A stretch of DNA of 64,000 nt from contig JAJTFC010000015.1 of NCBI GenBank assembly GCA_021298315.1, positions 1 to 64,000 of the forward strand, written 5' to 3'. Numbering within the stretch: the first letter of the stretch is position 1; each line of letters begins with the position of its first letter. This stretch comes from Planctomycetaceae bacterium (GTDB lineage: Bacteria; Planctomycetota; Planctomycetia; Pirellulales; Pirellulaceae). Made by a program: the position numbers and the translations under genes. This document shows, in pieces, positions 3 through 11,882 of this stretch. Under the pieces are notes generated by a model. It was not told the origin of the DNA. It searched no databases and saw nothing but the letters and a program-made list of their open reading frames with translations.

Positions 3-431
3 ATTGTCGAGCCCTATTGGGACGATCAAGGTGGGGCGTTGTGTCCTATGGCAACTGGGGTATCCCATCACATTGGCCCATCGGGTGCCATCGAGCCGTG
101 CCCGATCATCCAGTTTGCCAAAGAAACGATCCATGACGGTCCGAGCATCTACCAGATCATGTCAAAATCCGAATTTCTTGAGGATTTTCGCAAGACTTCT
201 GCGGCCGCGACCCGAGGCTGCGTGGTGCTCGAACGCCCTGACTTGGTTAAGCAACTTGTCGTAAAACATTCCGCCGGCGACACCACGCAGAGGCAAGCCG
301 CCATGGTAGAATTAGAGGCCCTCGAATCGCGCACGAGCCAGCATCAGCCCGGAGAGGAAATCCCCGAGCAGAGCTGGGTTTACCGTTTTGCCAAGAAGCA
401 TTGGTACTTCGGTTTTGGTGCTTACACTTGA
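3..431 (+). CDS. Radical SAM protein, C-terminal SPASM-type part (5' end outside window)
   Basis: The frame is open from the first bases of the window, so the gene begins upstream and only about 142 residues are visible. The visible part has the SPASM-like pattern GPSGAIEPCPIIQFA, a later GCVVLE segment, and ends in RFAKKHWYFGFGAYT. Such C-terminal Cys motifs bind auxiliary Fe-S clusters in radical SAM enzymes; the SAM-binding CxxxCxxC core is not in the window, so family membership is inferred from this tail only. It stops 22 bp before the DUF116/polyprenyl synthase fusion and is in the same direction, so it is probably the first visible gene of the terpenoid operon. The substrate is unknown. 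Confidence 0.72.
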   Translation: MVEPYWDDQGGALCPMATGVSHHIGPSGAIEPCPIIQFAKETIHDGPSIYQIMSKSEFLEDFRKTSAAATRGCVVLERPDLVKQLVVKHSAGDTTQRQAAMVELEALESRTSQHQPGEEIPEQSWVYRFAKKHWYFGFGAYT

Positions 432-453
432 TCCGCTTGGAAAGAATTCACTG

Positions 454-2178
454 ATGCAGTTGCCCATACTGAGTTTGCCGCGTGCGGTTCCTGTCCAACG
501 CGAGCGGAAGCCTAAAGAGAACATCCCCCAGACGCGCACTGAGCGAGAGTCGATCCGAGCTCGACTCAGGCAGTACGTCGTCGACGCCAAATTGGTCGCT
601 CCCCTTTCGATCGCAGACCTTCGCAAACACTCCGAGATCTGCGTCGAAACTCAGGGGCTCGATCCGATCCACACCGACTATGTTGGCGTTTTGCTTAACA
701 GCGAAGTATGGCGGGATCAATTGGCCAAGGTTCCTTACGAGCGACGTTTGCTGCTGCTTCCAAAGTGCATGCGGATCGAGGACAAGTGCCCTGCCCCGTT
801 TGACGAGTTTGGGCTCTTGTGCAAGCAGTGTGGACTATGCACCATCCAGGAACTGCAAGAGGAAGCCGAACGGCTCGGTTATGCTGTGCTGGTGGCCGAG
901 GGTTCAGCCTTGGTCATGGCGATCATCGAAACAGGAAAGATCGACGCGATCGTCGGAGTCAGTTGTTTGAGCGTTCTTGAGAAAGCTTTCCCCTACATGG
1001 AATCTGCTGCCATACCCGGCGTAGCCATTCCGTTGCTGCAAGACGATTGCAAGGATGTGACGGTCGACTTGGAGTGGATCTGGGAAACGATCCACCTGAC
1101 GAGCCAAGACGCAACCTACCGCTTGAACCTCGATAGCCTTCGTAGCACCGTCAAGGAATGGTTCAGCGAAGATTCGCTCGAAGAGATCATGGGTCAAGCA
1201 CCGACGCAAACCGAAAAAATCGCGAGGGCTTGGTTGGCAAAAAATGGTAAGCGATGGAGGCCGTTTCTGACGGCCTGCGTATGGAAGTCGATGGTTGACG
1301 ATCCGGACCTTCCGGTTCCGATGTCTTTGAAGAAACTCGCCGTGGCAGCAGAGTGCTTCCACAAAGCTTCGTTGGTTCATGATGACATCGAGGACAACGA
1401 CGATTTCCGTTACGGTGAACCATCGCTGCATAACGAACAAGGTGTTGCCGTAGCACTCAACGTTGGGGACCTGCTTCTTGGAGATGGTTACGCCCTGATT
1501 GCCGAATGCGATCTGAGCGCCCAACAGCGAATAGCCATCAGCAGAGTCGCTGCCGCAGGGCATCGCACTTTGTGTTTAGGTCAAGGGGCAGAGTTCCAGT
1601 GGGCCAAATCCCCTGGGCCTTTGTCGTCGAGTGAAGTGCTCGATATTTTCCGCAAAAAAACCTCGACGGCCTTTGAAGTTGCCTTGCAGTTTGGTGCTTT
1701 GGCTGCTGGTGCCGACCAAAAGGTTTGCAGCATCATCTCTCGTTTTAGCGATGCACTTGGGATTGCTTATCAAATCCGCGATGACCTCGAAGACATGATC
1801 AGCGGCGATTCGATGAGCGACTTGATGGCAATGCGGCCATCGCTACCGTTAGCCCTATTGCATGAACGCGTTCGGGGCCAAGCTGCGCACAAATCGCTCG
1901 TCGAGAGAGCTTGGCGCAAGGCGTGTTCGAAAGAGGAGCTTATGCAAGTCGAGAAACTTTTCTCGGAGTATCAGATCGCCGATCGCTGTAAAGTCCTCCA
2001 GGAGTCCTACAAAGAAGAGGCTATCCGTTGTTTGACCGAACTGGAAAACCCGAGCGTCAAAGGGCTGCTTCGTCGTGTGATCAGCAAGATATTCACTGTG
2101 GAAGTGAAGGATTGGTGCAGTGAGTTTGAGACTAGAAATGCTGCAAGTCGCACGCCTAGCCCCCAAGTTGCTGGGTGA
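454..2178 (+). CDS. DUF116-like Cys-rich domain fused to polyprenyl diphosphate synthase
   Basis: A two-part protein of 574 residues. The N-terminal half has a dense cysteine set (KCMRIEDKCP near residue 105, LCKQCGLC near residue 125, then SCLS and DDCKD), which fits a DUF116-type Fe-S-binding domain. The C-terminal half is a trans-isoprenyl diphosphate synthase: GKRWRP, first aspartate-rich motif HDDIED (DDIED at about 310-314) and second motif QIRDDLED (443-447). Known members condense IPP with allylic diphosphates; chain length cannot be read here. I start at ATG 454, preceded by GGAAAG, because the longer frame (388) runs into the upstream gene. Its 3' end overlaps the next gene by 59 bp, which suggests translational coupling. 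The fusion itself is unusual. The Fe-S role is inference. Confidence 0.85.
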   Translation: MQLPILSLPRAVPVQRERKPKENIPQTRTERESIRARLRQYVVDAKLVAPLSIADLRKHSEICVETQGLDPIHTDYVGVLLNSEVWRDQLAKVPYERRLLLLPKCMRIEDKCPAPFDEFGLLCKQCGLCTIQELQEEAERLGYAVLVAEGSALVMAIIETGKIDAIVGVSCLSVLEKAFPYMESAAIPGVAIPLLQDDCKDVTVDLEWIWETIHLTSQDATYRLNLDSLRSTVKEWFSEDSLEEIMGQAPTQTEKIARAWLAKNGKRWRPFLTACVWKSMVDDPDLPVPMSLKKLAVAAECFHKASLVHDDIEDNDDFRYGEPSLHNEQGVAVALNVGDLLLGDGYALIAECDLSAQQRIAISRVAAAGHRTLCLGQGAEFQWAKSPGPLSSSEVLDIFRKKTSTAFEVALQFGALAAGADQKVCSIISRFSDALGIAYQIRDDLEDMISGDSMSDLMAMRPSLPLALLHERVRGQAAHKSLVERAWRKACSKEELMQVEKLFSEYQIADRCKVLQESYKEEAIRCLTELENPSVKGLLRRVISKIFTVEVKDWCSEFETRNAASRTPSPQVAG

Positions 2179-3010
2179 TTCGACCGATTTGGTCGCCGAT
2201 TTCTTTCGATCGCAGCATCACTCTAGCGGTGGTTTTTGCGATCGAGAGGGTAAGCCCGATTTGTATTACTCGACTTTCGGAATCGCTGGCTATGTGGCAC
2301 TTCAGTTGCCTTTGCCTATCGAGTCGATCGCCGGATATCTCCGATCGCAGCATGATCGTATCGACGAATTGAATTTGGTGGATCTGTCTTGCTTGGCCCG
2401 GTGTTGGGCGTTTTTGCCCAAGCCCCTATGGCCGGAGGATCTCCAGGCGAAAACGATCGCCCGCATGGAACGCTTTCGTGCCGAAGATGGCGGGTTTTTC
2501 ACCGAGCCTAGTGAGAACCATAGTTCCCTCTACGGATGCTTCGTCGCCGTCGGGCTTGCACAAGACATCGGGCACCTATTGGGGAGGGAGTCCGAAATGC
2601 TCAAGTGCATCCAAGGTAGACTCTCCCAAGATGGTGGATATTCAAACAGTCCAGATTTGCCCTTTGGCCTCGTGCCGACAACGGCGGCTGCCGCATCGTT
2701 GTTTAGGCACCTAGGTAGCCATGAAACAAACGGCGTGAGAGACTGGCTCTTGGCTCAGATGCACCAAGACGGCGGTTTTTGTGTCGGGCCTGGTATCGTC
2801 ATGCCGGATCTTCTCTCGACAGCTACCGCATTGCATGCCTTGAGCACCACTTCGTTTGACCTTGGGCTCATCGCAGAGAAGAATCTCGACTATCTCGATA
2901 CACTTTGGACGGCCCGCGGTGGATTTGTCGGGTCTTGGGAAGATGATGCGTTGGATATCGAATACACCTACTACGGGCTCTTGAGCCTCGGGCATTTGAG
3001 TTTCTGGTGA
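2120..3010 (+). CDS. Prenyltransferase/terpene-cyclase repeat protein (small alpha-barrel)
   Basis: A protein of 296 residues built of repeated helical units with DGG-type turns: DGGFFTEPSE, DGGYSNSPD and DGGFCVGPG, as in the prenyltransferase/squalene oxidase repeat superfamily. The C-terminal DIEYTYYGLLSLGHL resembles the end of protein-prenyltransferase beta subunits, but the usual zinc-ligand D-x-C segment is not evident, so protein prenylation is not supported. It starts at GTG 2120 with AAGGA at 2107-2111, inside the upstream polyprenyl synthase gene (ATG 2138 is the alternative), and ends 4 bp before the large cyclase. By context it may be a partner subunit or a second cyclase acting on the same polyprenoid. 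It lacks a DXDD motif, so catalysis of its own is uncertain. Confidence 0.75.
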   Translation: MSLRLEMLQVARLAPKLLGDSTDLVADFFRSQHHSSGGFCDREGKPDLYYSTFGIAGYVALQLPLPIESIAGYLRSQHDRIDELNLVDLSCLARCWAFLPKPLWPEDLQAKTIARMERFRAEDGGFFTEPSENHSSLYGCFVAVGLAQDIGHLLGRESEMLKCIQGRLSQDGGYSNSPDLPFGLVPTTAAAASLFRHLGSHETNGVRDWLLAQMHQDGGFCVGPGIVMPDLLSTATALHALSTTSFDLGLIAEKNLDYLDTLWTARGGFVGSWEDDALDIEYTYYGLLSLGHLSFW

Positions 3011-3014
3011 TGCA

Positions 3015-4934
3015 ATGAACTTCGATGTCTTGCTAAGCAATGCCAGAGAGACTCTTCTTGCAGAGCGTAACGAACAAGGGCATTGGGAAGGTCAGCTTTC
3101 AAGCAGCGCCCTTTCGACAGCTACGGCGGTGTGTGCTCTAGAAGCCTTCGTTGCTAAGGCATCAAGTCTTGAGTCAAGCCAGAGACATCGGATTCTCGAT
3201 CAGATTCATCAGGGTCGGGTCTGGTTGATCGAAAATCAAAATGCCGATGGGGGATGGGGAGATACGACCCAAAGCCATAGCAATATCAGCACCACCTTGT
3301 TGGTCTGGGGAGCCCTCAACACCAGCGATTCAAATTTGCCAGGACGCCTCGAAGCCGAATCCAAAGCCGAGGATTGGATTAAGCGTGCGGCAGGTAGTCT
3401 CAATCCTGCGGATATTGCTAGAGCCGTTCGGGCTCGCTATGGGAAAGACCAAACTTTTTCCGTTCCGATCCTCATGGCCCTAGCTTCCCGGGGTAGGCTA
3501 GGAAACTCCGAGCCCCAAAGTTGGAGACTTGTTCCTCAGCTCCCCTTCGAGTTGGCTGCGTGTCCGCGAAGTTGGTTTGCTGCGATGAAACTGCCCGTCG
3601 TGAGCTATGCCTTACCGGCTTTGATCGCCATCGGCTTGGTTAGGCATCGTAAAGCTCCTAGTCGCAATCCGATCGCTCGAATGGTTCGCAGTGTGGCGAC
3701 CAAGCGTTGTTTGAAGGTTCTCGAATCGATACAGCCTCAAAGCGGTGGATTTCTCGAAGCGATCCCGCTGACGAGCTTTGTTGCTATAGCGATGATCGGC
3801 GCAGGAGAGGTTGCGCATCCGACGGTCAGCAAGGGGGTTGCATTTCTTAACCAAACGTTTCGATCCGATGGTAGCTGGGCAATCGATACGCATCTTGCAA
3901 CCTGGGTCTCGACCCTTTCGATCAATGCGCTAAGCCAATCGCAGCAAGTGGACGAGGAATTCTACAAAACCGAATATTCGCTTATTCGTTGGATCTGCGA
4001 TCAGCAGTATCGAGAGGTCCATCCGTTTACCAATGCTGCCCCAGGAGGATGGTCTTGGACACCTTTAAGCGGAGGGGTTCCCGATGCGGACGATACTCCC
4101 GGTGCGATGCTGGCACTGAAGGTCTTCTACCAGCAAGCATCCGAAGATGCAAAACGACAAACCGAGATCAGCCGCCAGGCTCTTGCCGGTGCCAAGTGGC
4201 TCATGGATTTGCAAAACCGCGACGGTGGGATTCCTACCTTTTGTCGAGGCTGGGGAACGCTCCCGTTCGATCGATCGAATCCAGACATCACCGCCCATGC
4301 GATCCGAGCTTGGTTGGCTTGGCACGAGTTAGCCGAAAGCAGGCTCCAAGTTCGATTGCAAGGAGCCATCGAGCGAGCAATGCACTTCCTCAAAGATCGT
4401 CAAAGGCACGATGGGGCTTGGGTGCCCCTTTGGTTTGGAAACCAGTACGTGCAAGAGGAAGAAAACTTGACCTACGGCACGAGCCGCGTCTTGTTAGCCT
4501 GGAACGAGGCTCGCAAGTGGGATTGGCTCAAGCATAACGCAAGCTTACAGATCGATCGGCGAATCTCGTTGGCAGCTCGATGGCTTGCTGGGGCTCAGCA
4601 ATCCGATGGGAGTTGGACTGGTTCGGATCGCGGATCGTTACACAAAGACTTTGCCGACAGCGATCCGAGCCAACTCGGTTCGATCGAAGAGACGGCACTT
4701 GCCATCGAATCGCTCGCGGCGCTTTACCAAGACGGCATTGACGTGGAGCTTCGAGATGTCCTGTTTCGAGGGGTTGAGTGGATTGCAAGACGTACGAACG
4801 AGGGAACATACTTTCCGCCGAGTCCGATCGGATTTTACTTTGCCAAGCTTTGGTATTACGAGAAGCACTATCCGATCTGTTACAGTGTCGCCGCATTGGA
4901 ACGGGTCTCTAGAATAATGCAGGCAAACTCATGA
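3015..4934 (+). CDS. Squalene-hopene cyclase family class II terpene cyclase
   Basis: At 639 residues it has the usual length of squalene-hopene cyclases. The catalytic acid motif appears as VPDADDTPGA (D357-A-D359-D360), the DXDD form that protonates a terminal double bond. QW-type repeats are visible as QNADGGWGD near residue 75, QNRDGGIP near 400 and QQSDGSW near 530. The family cyclises squalene, tetraprenyl-curcumene or related linear polyprenoids at the membrane. The neighbouring gene is a polyprenyl diphosphate synthase and no squalene synthase or HpnC/D/E gene is visible, so the substrate may not be squalene; that is inference. The stop overlaps the start of the cysteine desulfurase gene (ATGA), which indicates one transcript and coupled translation. 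Confidence 0.85.
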   Translation: MNFDVLLSNARETLLAERNEQGHWEGQLSSSALSTATAVCALEAFVAKASSLESSQRHRILDQIHQGRVWLIENQNADGGWGDTTQSHSNISTTLLVWGALNTSDSNLPGRLEAESKAEDWIKRAAGSLNPADIARAVRARYGKDQTFSVPILMALASRGRLGNSEPQSWRLVPQLPFELAACPRSWFAAMKLPVVSYALPALIAIGLVRHRKAPSRNPIARMVRSVATKRCLKVLESIQPQSGGFLEAIPLTSFVAIAMIGAGEVAHPTVSKGVAFLNQTFRSDGSWAIDTHLATWVSTLSINALSQSQQVDEEFYKTEYSLIRWICDQQYREVHPFTNAAPGGWSWTPLSGGVPDADDTPGAMLALKVFYQQASEDAKRQTEISRQALAGAKWLMDLQNRDGGIPTFCRGWGTLPFDRSNPDITAHAIRAWLAWHELAESRLQVRLQGAIERAMHFLKDRQRHDGAWVPLWFGNQYVQEEENLTYGTSRVLLAWNEARKWDWLKHNASLQIDRRISLAARWLAGAQQSDGSWTGSDRGSLHKDFADSDPSQLGSIEETALAIESLAALYQDGIDVELRDVLFRGVEWIARRTNEGTYFPPSPIGFYFAKLWYYEKHYPICYSVAALERVSRIMQANS

Positions 4935-6103
4935 GCCAGGAGATCAGCAAGCCGGTTTACCTTGATTGCAACGCATCGAATCCGATCGAGCCGAGGGTCT
5001 TGCAAGCGATGCTTGAAGCCTATCGAGTTTTGCAAGGAAACGCTGGCAGTCCGCACCTTCACGGACAAAATGCCAAAGAGGCGGTGCATCGGGCTCGCGA
5101 TCAGATCGGTGCTGTGGTTGGTGCCAAACGCCATGAAGTCTATTTCACCAGCGGAGCAACCGAAGGCAATAACCTTGCGATTTTGGGATTGGCCCAACAG
5201 GGTAAAGCAACCGGAAAGATGCACATCGTCAGCTCGGCCATTGAGCACAAAGCGGTACTTGAACCGCTCGAACGCATGCGATCGATGGGATTCGAAATCA
5301 CCTTGATCAAACCTCAGAGCGACGGACGAGTCTCAAGCCAAGCGATGATCGATGCGATGCGGCCCGATACGTTGCTTGTGAGTCTCATGCACGTCAATAA
5401 CGAGACGGTGCACGTCAATAACGAGACGGGCATCGTTCAGCCCATCGATCAAGTCGCCCAAGGGGCACATGCAAGAGGCATTTGGATGCATGTGGATGCA
5501 GCTCAAGGATTCGCAAGAGACATCGAGCCATTGAGGCATCCGGGAATCATTTCAATGAGTGTCAGCGGGCACAAAATCTTTGGTCCGCAAGGGATCGGTG
5601 CTTTGATCATGCGCCGAAACAAAGACCATGACGGTGCTTTGGCACCGATCCTAGTCGGTGGTGGGCAAGAGCTAGGCTTGCGTCCAGGAACCCTTGCAGT
5701 TCCGCTGGTTGTCGGTTTTGGATTGGCAGCCGAACTTGCACTCCAAGAGCATGTAGCCCGAAAAGAAGCTTGCGAGCGACTCGGTGCAATCATCCATCAG
5801 TGGGCCATGAGCCATCGAGCAAAGATCCATGGGGAACCGCAGCATCGATTGCCGCATGTGATGAACATCTCGATTCCTGGTTGGGATGCAGACGAATTGC
5901 TTGAATCGATTCGAGATCACATCTCGATTTCCGATGGGGCCGCTTGCACGAGCGTTTGTGCGACGGCCAGTCACGTTCTATCGGCCATGGGGGTGCGTGA
6001 GCCAGAGTTAAGTGGAGCGGTGCGACTCTCTTGGTGCCATTTCACCGACGCAGAGTCGCTGCAAAGTGCATTGCAAGCCGCTGGGCAGATTCTAGGGAAA
6101 TAG
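4931..6103 (+). CDS. Cysteine desulfurase (NifS/IscS-like, class V aminotransferase fold)
   Basis: A PLP enzyme that moves sulfur from cysteine to an acceptor. Family features are VYLDCNASNP at the N-terminus, TSGATEGNN, HVDAAQGFA, the PLP lysine in SVSGHKIFGP (K215) and the persulfide cysteine loop GAACTSVC (C339). It overlaps the terpene cyclase gene by 4 bp (ATGA), so it is the last gene of the operon. It may feed sulfur into the Fe-S clusters of the radical SAM and DUF116 proteins, or supply sulfur to a product; both are inference. One oddity is that the conserved MHVNNETG segment is tandemly duplicated (seven extra residues, from 5389 to 5430), next to residues that contact PLP in this family. 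Activity is therefore not assured. Confidence 0.85.
   Translation: MSQEISKPVYLDCNASNPIEPRVLQAMLEAYRVLQGNAGSPHLHGQNAKEAVHRARDQIGAVVGAKRHEVYFTSGATEGNNLAILGLAQQGKATGKMHIVSSAIEHKAVLEPLERMRSMGFEITLIKPQSDGRVSSQAMIDAMRPDTLLVSLMHVNNETVHVNNETGIVQPIDQVAQGAHARGIWMHVDAAQGFARDIEPLRHPGIISMSVSGHKIFGPQGIGALIMRRNKDHDGALAPILVGGGQELGLRPGTLAVPLVVGFGLAAELALQEHVARKEACERLGAIIHQWAMSHRAKIHGEPQHRLPHVMNISIPGWDADELLESIRDHISISDGAACTSVCATASHVLSAMGVREPELSGAVRLSWCHFTDAESLQSALQAAGQILGK
5389..5430 (+). repeat. 21-bp tandem duplication inside cysteine desulfurase
   Basis: Two adjacent copies (5389-5409, 5410-5430) differ only in the last base. They encode HVNNETV-HVNNETG. IscS/NifS relatives have a single HVNNE(I/T)G here, so the extra copy is an in-frame insertion in a conserved part of the enzyme. 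Confidence 0.9.
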
Positions 6104-6106
6104 ACC

Positions 6107-6955
6107 CTATCGCCTTCGGGTTCTTTTTCTGACCCACCATCCCAAAGCCGCTATGCCCAGGAGAGACAGGCTACCTGGTTCGGGGACTGCCGAGTACTCG
6201 ATACGATCCATGGCAAAGTAAGCCGGGGTGTTCATGCCGAATTGCCCATTGTCGCTCGATGAGAGCGAGAACTTGAGCGAATCGATCACTCCCAAGTTAG
6301 CCAGATCGACGCGAGTCCATTGGTCAACGACGTAATCTTGATTGTTGTTCTCGAAGCGGTAGTCGGCTAGAAAAAAATCAATCGCAGCAGTTTGCGTAGA
6401 GCCTCGGAAGCCAAGAATCTGAAGTTTAAAGAAATCCGGATCGTTCCCTGAGGCACCCCCAAACTTCTTGGAAAACTGATCACCATCCTTCATCGAAAAA
6501 TAAGCGTATGCGGTATTGGAGATGTCGATCGATGCGACTTGGACTTGGGCACCAAAGGTGATGATCGAGTCACCTACAAACGAGTTGTAAGCGATCGCGT
6601 AGTGGGCTGAGCCCCCCGAGCCGGTTCCTGGTTTGGATGCATATTGGTTTTGGAATCCAGATTCGTTGCCGGCATTGACTCGCGAATAGGAAAAGCCAGA
6701 CCAATAGCCAAAGTTGAATTGGCTGTCGAAAGTATAGGAGTTTGAAAAACCAACAGTGCCACTTTTCCATCCTTGGCTGTTGGTTGTGTTGCTACCCAGA
6801 TCGCCGTTGTAGTACAAACCGTTGGAACCTTGGGAATAGAGCGAATTATCCTCGAAACCTACGATATCCCCGAGGCAAACCAAGGCAGGGAATAACAACA
6901 AGAGTGAAGCAAAAACGATTGTTTGCGCGGTGCGCAAATCACTAGCCAACAGCAT
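6107..6955 (-). CDS. DUF4465 domain protein with PEP-CTERM sorting signal
   Basis: A secreted protein of 282 residues. A signal peptide (TIVFASLLLLFPALVCLGD) precedes a DUF4465 domain with its typical segments: YWSGFSYSR, SAHYAIAYNSF, AYAYFSMKDGDQFSKKFGG, FFLADYRFEN and LSSSDNGQFGMNTPAYF. The C-terminus is a PEP-CTERM signal: VPEPGSLSLLGIAALGWWV followed by RKRTRRR. In other bacteria PEP-CTERM proteins are processed by exosortase; none is in this window. A cobalamin riboswitch lies directly upstream on the same strand, so expression should fall when B12 is plentiful. From memory, DUF4465 proteins occur in B12 uptake loci of Bacteroidetes; a role in capturing cobalamin at the surface is inferred from that and from the riboswitch. 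The gene converges with the terpenoid operon, with 3 bp between stops. Confidence 0.85.
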   Translation of the reverse strand: MLLASDLRTAQTIVFASLLLLFPALVCLGDIVGFEDNSLYSQGSNGLYYNGDLGSNTTNSQGWKSGTVGFSNSYTFDSQFNFGYWSGFSYSRVNAGNESGFQNQYASKPGTGSGGSAHYAIAYNSFVGDSIITFGAQVQVASIDISNTAYAYFSMKDGDQFSKKFGGASGNDPDFFKLQILGFRGSTQTAAIDFFLADYRFENNNQDYVVDQWTRVDLANLGVIDSLKFSLSSSDNGQFGMNTPAYFAMDRIEYSAVPEPGSLSLLGIAALGWWVRKRTRRR

Positions 6956-9228: not shown

Positions 9229-11882
9229 ATGGCAAACAAACTCATCTATTTCTTTGGCAAATCCAAAACCGACGGCAGCGGGGACATGAAGGCCCTGTTG
9301 GGGGGCAAGGGTGCCAACCTAGCTCAGATGACCAAGATTGGCTTGCCCGTTCCCTCCGGCTTTACCATCACCACCGAGGTTTGCGTCAACTATTACAAGA
9401 ACGGGCGAAAGTATCCAGCGGAGCTAGCGAGCGAACTGGAGAAGGCCGTCAAGTGGCTCGAGAAGGAGACCGGCAAAAAGTTTGGAGATGTCAAGAATCC
9501 GCTCTTGGTCTCGGTCCGTTCGGGAGCACGAGATTCCATGCCGGGCATGATGGACACTATTTTGAACTTGGGCCTCAACGATGCGGCCACCGAAGGGCTA
9601 GCAAACGCAACGAAGAACCCTCGATTCGCTTGGGACTCCTACCGTCGATTCATCCAGATGTATGGCGACGTGGTCATGGGCGTCCAAAAGAAGAACGAGA
9701 ACGACCACGAGCCGTTCGAGGAAGTCATGGATGGCTTGAAGCACGAAGCCAAAGTCAAGGAAGACACCGAGCTGACCGCAGAGCACCTTCAAGAGCTTGT
9801 TAAGAGGTACAAGAAACTCATCAAGGAGCGAACCGGCAAGGCGTTTCCGACCGAGCCGATGAAGCAACTCGAAGGTTCCGTTCAGGCCGTCTTTGGCTCC
9901 TGGATGAACGAGCGAGCTATTTTGTATCGTCAAAAGTACCGAATCCCAGACGAGTGGGGTACAGCCGTCAACGTCCAGAGCATGGTCTTCGGGAACATGG
10001 GTGAGGATTGCGCTACGGGTGTAGCTTTCACTCGCGACCCAGCCAACGGTGAAAACGTCTTCTATGGCGAGTACTTGGTCAACGCTCAGGGCGAAGACGT
10101 CGTGGCGGGCGTTCGAACTCCGCTAAAGATTTCGGAGATGGCCAAGGACAAGATCCTCGGGCCAGCTTACAAGGAACTCGTCGAAGTTCGAAAGACTCTC
10201 GAACGAAACTTTGGGGATGTCCAAGACTTCGAGTTTACCATCGAAAACAAGAAGCTCTACATGCTTCAGACTCGCCATGGCAAGCGAACCGCATTGGCTT
10301 ATGTGAAAATCGCTCACGACATGGTCAAGGAAAAGCTCATGACACCCGAGCATGCGATCAAGTCGGGTGATCCAGAAGCCCTCAACCAGTTGCTACAGCC
10401 AATCTTCGACACCAAGGCTTATGACAAGGCCAAGAAGGATGGTCGATTGATGGCCGTTGGATTGCCTGCAGGTCCTGGTGCCGCTTCGGGTGCCGTGGTC
10501 TTTACCGCTGGTAGAGCAGAGGAACTTGCAGCCAAGTGTCAGCACGTGGTTCTGGCCCGTATCGAAACGAGCCCCGAAGACCTTCGCGGTATGATCGCCG
10601 CAGACGGTATTCTCATGGCTCGCGGTCCACTGGCGAAGTATTCCATGGCAAGATCGACACAGCCGATAGCGAGCTCAAGCAAGTCCTTGTCGGCAAGACC
10701 CTCAAGCCCAAGGACTCGAAGGTCTTCCAGTACTATGACTTCATCATGAAGCTTGCTGACAAGTACCGAACGCTTGGGCTTCGCACCAACGCGGACCAAC
10801 CCGATCAAGTTCTAAACGCGGTGGCGTTTGGGGCCGAAGGAATCGGTCTGTGCCGAACCGAGCACATGTTCTTCGAAGGGGATCGAATCATCGCCGTTCG
10901 GCAAATGATCTTGGCCAAGTCCGAAGACGCTCGCAAGAGTGCTTTGGCTAAGCTCCTTCCTTATCAGCAAAAGGACTTCGAAGGGATCTTCCGAGCTCTC
11001 GATGGATTGCCAGCATGCGTGCGTTTGCTCGATCCGCCTCTCCATGAATTCTTGCCACAATCGGACAACAAGAAGGGGCAAGAAGAGGTCGCCAAGCAGC
11101 TTGGGACCACCGTGGCTGAAGTTGCCAAGATGGTCAATGAGCTCCATGAGTTCAATCCAATGCTCGGCTTCCGTGGTTGCCGTTTGGGGATTATTCGTCC
11201 CGAGATCACCGAGATGCAAGCACGCGCGATTTTCCAAGCTGCCGTGACGGTGCTCAAAGAAGGGGTCAAGGTTAAGCCAGAGGTGATGGTGCCGCTGGTG
11301 GGCTTCAAGCGAGAACTCGATTTGCAAGTCGAGATCGTCCATCGAGTTGCAGCAGAAGTCATGAAGGCTAGCGGCAAGAAATTTGCTTATAGCGTCGGAA
11401 CGATGATCGAAGTCCCACGTGGAGCGATCACTGCCGATGAGATTGCACAGACCGCTGAGTTCTTCTCGTTTGGAACCAACGACTTGACCCAAACAGCATT
11501 GGGTATGAGCCGTGACGATTCAGGTTCATTCTTGCCAGCTTACCAAGGTCTTGAGATCATCAAAGCCAATCCATTTGCCTCGATCGATCGGGGTGGTGTT
11601 GGCCAGTTGATGAAGATCGGCGTTGAGAAGGGGCGATCGACCCGCAACGATTTGAAGATCGGGATTTGCGGTGAGCATGGTGGCGATCCGAGTTCGGTCG
11701 AGTTCTGCCATATGATCGGATTGAACTATGTGAGCTGCAGTCCGTTCCGTGTTCCTATCGCGAGACTTGCCGCCGCCCAAGCTGCTCTGCGTCATCCGGC
11801 AAATGCACCTTCAGCCAAAGTGCTCAAGGACAGCAAGCCAGCCAAGGGTGCAACGAAGTCCAAGACGGTTTCGAAGCGATAG
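9229..11882 (+). pseudogene. ppdK: Pyruvate phosphate dikinase, internally deleted and frameshifted
   Basis: PPDK interconverts pyruvate, ATP and Pi with PEP, AMP and PPi. The N-terminal ATP-grasp part is intact ([38 protein letters not shown]). The C-terminal PEP-binding barrel is also intact ([31 protein letters not shown], catalytic-type Cys in [14 protein letters not shown]). At about 10621-10626 the sequence jumps from GILMARG straight to STGEVFHG in another frame. Relatives have about 50 residues there, including the phospho-histidine segment GGMTSHAAVVAR. The gene is therefore split over two frames (first frame to stop at 10749; second frame resumes near 10626) and the swivelling His domain is largely missing. 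It cannot make a normal enzyme as written. Either the gene is a recent pseudogene or the sequence has a local deletion error. Flanking codons look otherwise unaffected. Confidence 0.88.

Follow-up and report, generated by a model that had tools for sequence, protein, structure and literature searches.

Cyclic terpenoids leave molecular fossils. The described systems close to the one reported here include squalene-hopene cyclase (SHC) and the sporulene/sesquarterpene route of Bacillus, which consists of heptaprenyl synthase, YtpB and SqhC. We know of no terpenoid route that combines a lipoyl carrier with radical S-adenosylmethionine (SAM) chemistry. Here we describe a conserved operon that brings such genes together with a class II terpene cyclase and a polyprenyl diphosphate synthase fused to a DUF116 domain. 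It lies at the start of the window, which covers bases 1 to 64000 of contig C152 (JAJTFC010000015.1) of a Planctomycetaceae bacterium, and the contig severs it at base 1.

The safest statement is that this is a conserved terpenoid cyclisation operon, independent of squalene synthase and undescribed within the open literature that we searched. The most likely product of the cluster is a long, ring-shaped isoprenoid, formed without squalene as an intermediate. We find it fairly probable that all nine genes of the operon serve a cyclised polyprenoid of this squalene-independent kind. In the open literature searched, which most subscription journals and preprints lie outside, we found nothing on the cyclase family or the operon. 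For the fusion there is a passing mention only: in the available part of PMC5898192, Psta_0175 of Pirellula staleyi is named in one sentence as a DUF116-polyprenyl synthetase fusion.

A conserved nine-gene operon

The window opens with five reading frames on the plus strand, the last ending at 6103, see Table 1. A sequence-only reading had taken them for a five-gene polyprenoid cyclisation operon. The positions and the order that it gave are borne out by the list of open reading frames (ORFs) and by domain matches, which are significant in Pfam for four of the five frames (all but 3-431). Its gaps and overlaps agree with our recomputed spacing, which is in order a 22 base pair (bp) gap, a 59 bp overlap, a 4 bp gap and a 4 bp overlap. 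The fusion frame is open from a TTG at 388, and its likely start is the ATG at 454. Since the next sizeable frame, 6107-6955, is on the opposite strand, the operon probably ends just after the desulfurase at 6103.

The claim of a conserved operon holds, but its size does not: there are nine genes, four of them upstream on another contig. The full-length radical SAM protein of a relative matches two places in the genome of the window (G000), namely C152 and the end of C98, a 4544-base contig (locus L081). The rest of the radical SAM gene is found there, at G000:C98:3-1052 (350 residues; PF04055, E 6.6e-15). The ends of the two contigs share 292 bases at 96.6% identity; we attribute the mismatches to strain variation within a metagenome assembly. 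Further, all nine genes are present in the same order on a single contig in three close relatives (L085, L087 and L088, two of them named Pirellula); the desulfurase, the ninth gene, is truncated by the contig end in L085, and in L085 and L087 it is detected by tblastn only. It is this gene order, as well as the overlap, that links C98 to C152. Of the nine genes, the window thus holds the fifth (in part) to the ninth, and the first half of the operon is on C98.

To describe conservation within the phylum, 246 genomes were searched for the cyclase. There was a match in 61, and 57 were kept; in the remaining four (G023, G026, G071 and G100) the sole match, at 27-30% identity, was of the SHC type. 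Neighbourhoods were retrieved for 40 of the 57, and a partner was counted if it matched at more than 40 bits. The fusion is found in 36 of these 40 loci, the ferredoxin-like protein in 31, the toroid protein in 27, the radical SAM enzyme in 24, the GcvH-like protein in 23, the four-cysteine protein in 17, the GTPase in 16 and the desulfurase in 13.

Outside this set, one scan of named genomes confirmed at least 577 cyclase-family loci, and the best 80 of these were studied. By record title they belong to Planctomycetota, Verrucomicrobiota, Acidobacteriota, Hydrogenedentota and Omnitrophota, with one unclassified. The toroid protein is present in 45 of the 80, the fusion in 32 (one of them, L105, matches the synthase part only, at 28%), the ferredoxin-like protein in 25, the four-cysteine protein and the desulfurase in 24 each, the radical SAM enzyme and the GTPase in 21 each, and the GcvH-like protein in 20; many of these stretches are short contigs, and absences there carry little meaning.

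Counts of the whole cluster are based on the first eight genes. The desulfurase was set aside because matches at 28-34% identity in Verrucomicrobiota may be other class V enzymes; its position also varies, as it adjoins the cyclase in some relatives and precedes the gcvH-like gene in others. All eight genes are within the retrieved stretch at 13 of the 40 phylum loci and at 17 of the best 80 named loci, the latter from Planctomycetota, Verrucomicrobiota and Acidobacteriota. The cluster therefore recurs in these three phyla. Chance clustering is excluded, since the gene order persists in distant genomes. In the genus of the window the cyclase is present in 25 of 27 genomes, its own included.

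The cyclase forms a family apart from squalene-hopene cyclases

Against the SHC model TIGR01507 the cyclase scores 67.6 bits, below the cut-off of 431.1, and its orthologue in L085 scores 75.7 bits; two SHCs from this phylum reach 669 and 701 bits. In a tree of rows selected from a larger set, which leaves out oxidosqualene cyclases (OSC), SqhC and diterpene cyclases, 34 cyclases and 7 SHCs are parted by a branch with 100/100 support. An ordinary SHC is ruled out by the low score together with the separate clade.

In addition, SHC-type enzymes exist beside the operon cyclase in the same genome. This is the case in G107 (669 bits to TIGR01507) and G158 (a partial SHC) and, judged from the motif and the position in the tree, in G141 and G076. 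A side observation is that an SHC adjoins HpnH in two planctomycete genomes, at L188 and at L190, the latter being G158, where the operon cyclase is also present. The HpnH adjoining the 701-bit SHC scores 387 bits, and the one adjoining the partial SHC of G158 scores 362 bits.

When a profile of 20 cyclases is compared with solved structures, the best match is the SHC 1gsz (E 1.5e-37), with lanosterol synthase at 6e-22. The DADD motif is found at residues 357-360. D357, D359, D360 and H428 are invariant in all 20 aligned proteins and correspond to D374, D376, D377 and H451 of SHC, while the invariant aromatics W297, W348, F409 and W473 (20/20) correspond to W312, F365, Y420 and W489. These SHC residues make up the acid motif and part of the cavity; the aromatics were examined at these four cavity positions, and the C-terminal cavity residues of SHC lie outside the comparison. 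Since the DxDD motif, the His and the cavity aromatics are all invariant, the residues of the cyclase fit a proton-started cyclisation of an alkene.

The cyclase co-occurs with a polyprenyl diphosphate synthase

In the same 246 genomes we searched with a profile of the fusion, where a score over 200 bits identifies the fusion and the best other synthase reaches 179. G098 was scored on a fragment of the synthase part and G075 on a fragment of the DUF116 part. Both cyclase and fusion are present in 56 genomes, the cyclase only in 1 (G010, 89% complete), the fusion only in 5 and neither in 184. The two are thus concordant in 240 of the 246 genomes; these include relatives, so the counts are not independent and a p value computed from them cannot be taken literally. 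The counts support the sequence-only proposal that the genomic partner of the cyclase is a dedicated polyprenyl synthase and not a squalene synthase.

The fusion protein of the window was aligned with 18 relatives chosen from 36. In all 19 the aspartate-rich motifs are conserved (D310, D311 and D314; D444 and D447), and in some relatives the second motif begins with Asn. Five residues before the first aspartate motif all 19 fusions have Ala, where two short-chain synthases aligned for comparison have Tyr. A small residue at this position permits longer chains. Since Ala is found where short-chain synthases have Tyr, the product chain is likely, although not certain, to be longer than C20. Seven Cys are invariant in the DUF116 part, which is modelled as an alpha/beta fold with a mean predicted local distance difference test (pLDDT) score of 78.5; a fold search with this domain model gave no match at E up to 0.001.

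Squalene genes do not follow the cyclase

The sequence-only reading had named two things that together would speak against it: squalene genes elsewhere in the genome, and a cyclase inside the hopanoid SHCs. The second was not found, see above, but the first was. Contig C102 of the same genome encodes HpnC (270.3 bits, cut-off 250.45) and an HpnD-like domain (156.7 bits, cut-off 278.6) fused to HpnE (344.2 bits, cut-off 283.05).

Over genomes, the cyclase shows no tie to squalene synthesis. Among 60 near relatives, the window's own genome included, the cyclase and an SQS_PSY enzyme are both present in 39, the cyclase only in 10 (G255, G272, G273, G276, G279, G280, G282, G287, G290 and G296), SQS_PSY only in 10 and neither in 1, that is, there is no association (Fisher p 0.67). 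G287, with the cyclase and no SQS_PSY, is a single-contig genome. A second set comprises 40 cyclase carriers and overlaps with the first in G000 and G167. SQS_PSY is missing from 6 of these carriers, two of which (G057 and G200) are 99% complete.

It could be argued that the enzyme has diverged from squalene cyclases but still uses squalene, made by the Hpn enzymes, while the adjoining polyprenyl synthase serves another purpose. Squalene would be available to it, since the genome has the squalene genes of C102 and, at about 90% completeness, no second PF13243 match that exceeds 35 bits or covers more than half of the profile. Further, the closest solved relative is an SHC, and SQS_PSY is present in 34 of the 40 carriers of the second set. 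However, cyclase carriers without SQS_PSY are found in both sets, several of them 99% complete, no association is seen over the 60 relatives, and SHC-type enzymes coexist with the cyclase in the four genomes named above. We therefore consider a squalene cyclase in this place improbable.

The other operon proteins

The radical SAM fragment at 3-431 has on its own no Pfam or NCBIfam match. In an alignment of 18 relatives, chosen from 44 usable proteins, C58, C62 and C65 of the CX3CX2C motif are invariant (18/18; numbering of L046), as are C268, G282, C287 and C327 towards the C-terminus, a pattern that we take to fit the first part of the SPASM motif. For the GcvH-like protein (PF01597, E 1.6e-21), 15 of 41 usable proteins were aligned with the window genome's own, and the lipoyl-accepting K82 is invariant in all 16. 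Against the GcvH equivalog TIGR00527 the own protein scores 76.5 bits, below the cut-off of 115.85.

The toroid protein was aligned with 17 relatives chosen from 68 usable ones. In these 18 proteins there is no conserved DxDD and no conserved Cys, and a single nearly invariant His, H239. Its profile matches in the PDB are terpene cyclases and beta subunits of protein prenyltransferases. In the latter the zinc ligands are Asp, Cys and His. Because neither DxDD nor Cys is conserved and there is one nearly invariant His, we regard a binding role as likelier for the toroid protein than activity as a zinc prenyltransferase.

These proteins allow for a different product. The operon might modify a protein or a protein-bound cofactor, with a core made up of the radical SAM enzyme plus the GcvH-like carrier, and with a cyclised prenyl chain as an anchor or cofactor on that carrier. 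The frequency of the GcvH-like (23), four-cysteine (17) and ferredoxin-like (31) genes among the 40 phylum loci is in favour of this, and SPASM-type enzymes often act on peptides. The toroid protein, being without a conserved Cys, does not have a complete zinc site of the kind found in protein prenyltransferases, and by profile the carrier is an ordinary lipoyl-domain protein. Protein modification thus appears unlikely to us.

The best NCBIfam match of the desulfurase is TIGR03235, at 392.7 bits and below the cut-off of 480. The four-cysteine protein, modelled from the relative L085, has a small alpha/beta fold (pLDDT 87.7), and its fold matches, none of them significant, include many flavodoxins and designed Rossmann folds. 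An HdrA-like label for this 127-residue protein was dropped, as no HdrA was found in the PDB profile search; HdrA was also absent from the 50 listed fold matches, none of which is significant.

The iron-sulfur (Fe-S) and lipoyl proteins in the cluster could also be read as redox partners and not as biosynthetic enzymes. The product would then be a redox-active, quinone-like or sulfur-containing polyprenoid for electron transfer, and DUF116 would be one of the partners. In the available part of PMC5898192 an electron-transfer role is argued for DUF116 from its gene neighbours. By Pfam, no UbiA-type ring prenyltransferase is present among the nine genes, and the present data show no sign of redox activity. 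A product for electron transfer has in our judgement only a small chance of being correct.

Proposed pathway

A cyclised, squalene-independent polyprenoid could be made in three steps; we infer the substrate, the chain length and the order of the steps, as well as what each of the Fe-S genes does. First, the synthase half of the DUF116 fusion would make a linear polyprenyl diphosphate longer than C20. Second, the DxDD cyclase would protonate a double bond of this chain, or of a derivative, and rings would close, with the toroid protein perhaps as its prenyl-binding partner. Third, the radical SAM enzyme may tailor the product. The Fe-S proteins, ferredoxin-like and DUF116, would feed this enzyme, the lipoyl protein would act as a swinging-arm carrier, and sulfur and metal would be supplied by the desulfurase and the CobW-type GTPase.

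It should be noted that several observations, in addition to the squalene genes and the SQS_PSY enzymes of most carriers, weigh against this pathway. The pathway is a prediction from genes. The chain length is deduced from a single residue, a weak sign, and the putative tailoring role of the Fe-S genes is read from gene order. The fusion is present without the cyclase in G028, G041, G065, G075 and G087; of these G087 is 99% complete and the other four are 79-90% complete. Finally, 48 of the best 80 named loci have no fusion match in the retrieved stretch, many of these stretches being short. In 34 of the 38 of these whose genomes were searched, the fusion is found elsewhere in the genome, split or partial in three (G318, G319 and G334).

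A wider reading is offered tentatively, at somewhat less than an even chance. According to it, at least three phyla share a widespread, undescribed pathway in which a dedicated long-chain polyprenyl diphosphate would be cyclised without squalene. Radical SAM and lipoyl/Fe-S chemistry would finish the product, a new class of cyclic polyprenoid that would serve as a terpenoid cofactor or membrane lipid and differ from hopanoids, sterols, sporulenes and quinones. If this is true, bacteria of soil and water commonly make a terpenoid that has so far escaped notice.

Features of the locus and its surroundings

Table 1. Operon genes in the window and on contig C98, and squalene genes of the same genome. 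Positions without a contig name refer to the window.
Feature	Position	Strand	Remark
GcvH-like lipoyl protein, 158 amino acids	C98		First gene of the operon, in order towards the break
CobW-type GTPase, 367 amino acids, CxCC motif	C98		Second gene of the operon
Four-cysteine protein, 127 amino acids	C98		Third gene of the operon
Ferredoxin-like protein, 300 amino acids	C98		Fourth gene of the operon
Radical SAM gene, 3' part	3..431	+	70% identity to a relative's complete protein, residues 255-396
DUF116/trans-polyprenyl diphosphate synthase fusion	454..2178	+	PF01976 E 8.6e-35, PF00348 E 2.8e-38
Small alpha-alpha toroid protein, prenyltransferase/terpene cyclase type, GTG start	2120..3010	+	PF00432 E 3.6e-13
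Class II terpene cyclase, separate family, DADD motif	3015..4934	+	PF13243 (SQHop_cyclase_C) E 2.9e-28
NifS/DndA-like cysteine desulfurase	4931..6103	+	PF00266 (Aminotran_5) E 2.5e-57
HpnC, then HpnD-like/HpnE fusion	L084 (C102) 229-3644	-	Own genome

Upstream of the GcvH-like gene, C98 (L081) carries a membrane-protein fragment at 4116-4544 on the minus strand. It is 63-64% identical to an ORF at the same place in L085, L087 and L088, and in these three relatives only. On the other side, the minus-strand frame at 6107-6955 faces the operon and probably has a PEP-CTERM-like tail, a name based on a motif. Further into the window, the plus-strand frames 9229-10749 and 10536-11882 overlap in a frameshift-like manner, real or derived from the assembly; the frames within 9229-11882 presumably resemble pyruvate phosphate dikinase.

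In 3 of the 40 phylum neighbourhoods a sodium:solute symporter gene is near the cyclase (L049:12531-14300, L053 and L064; the Pfam scan covers the L049 gene only). Where the cyclase stands alone in Verrucomicrobiota, none of the five families scanned beside it points to terpenoids; they include DCC1-like, deaminase, NUDIX and BON-like proteins. A comparison with PHROGs led nowhere.

Comparison with described systems

The fusion itself has a described counterpart in Psta_0175, which has the same domains and comes from a pirellula-type planctomycete; the available part of PMC5898192 gives no operon, cyclase or pathway for it. The GcvH-like gene, a lipoyl protein gene beside Fe-S genes, resembles that of LbpA in the sHdr sulfur oxidation system. 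According to the available part of PMC6067878, LbpA is marked by two strictly conserved Cys near both ends, whereas the operon GcvH-like proteins have no Cys in invariant or nearly invariant columns.

HpnH, the adenosyl-hopene transferase, is likewise a radical SAM enzyme with its gene near a cyclase; however, the radical SAM proteins of two relatives score 34.1 and 42.7 bits against TIGR03470, which has a cut-off of 225.05.

The Bacillus route resembles the operon in that a long-chain polyprenyl diphosphate is followed by a DxDD cyclase. It differs in that no class I cyclase family is matched by Pfam among the nine operon genes, and to our knowledge it includes nothing that corresponds to the Fe-S, radical SAM and lipoyl genes. 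SHC (TIGR01507, 1gsz) is similar to the operon cyclase in fold by profile, in the DxDD acid and His451, and in the aromatics at W312, F365, Y420 and W489. The operon cyclase is nevertheless below the TIGR01507 cut-off, forms a separate clade, and is tied to the fusion and not to squalene synthase.

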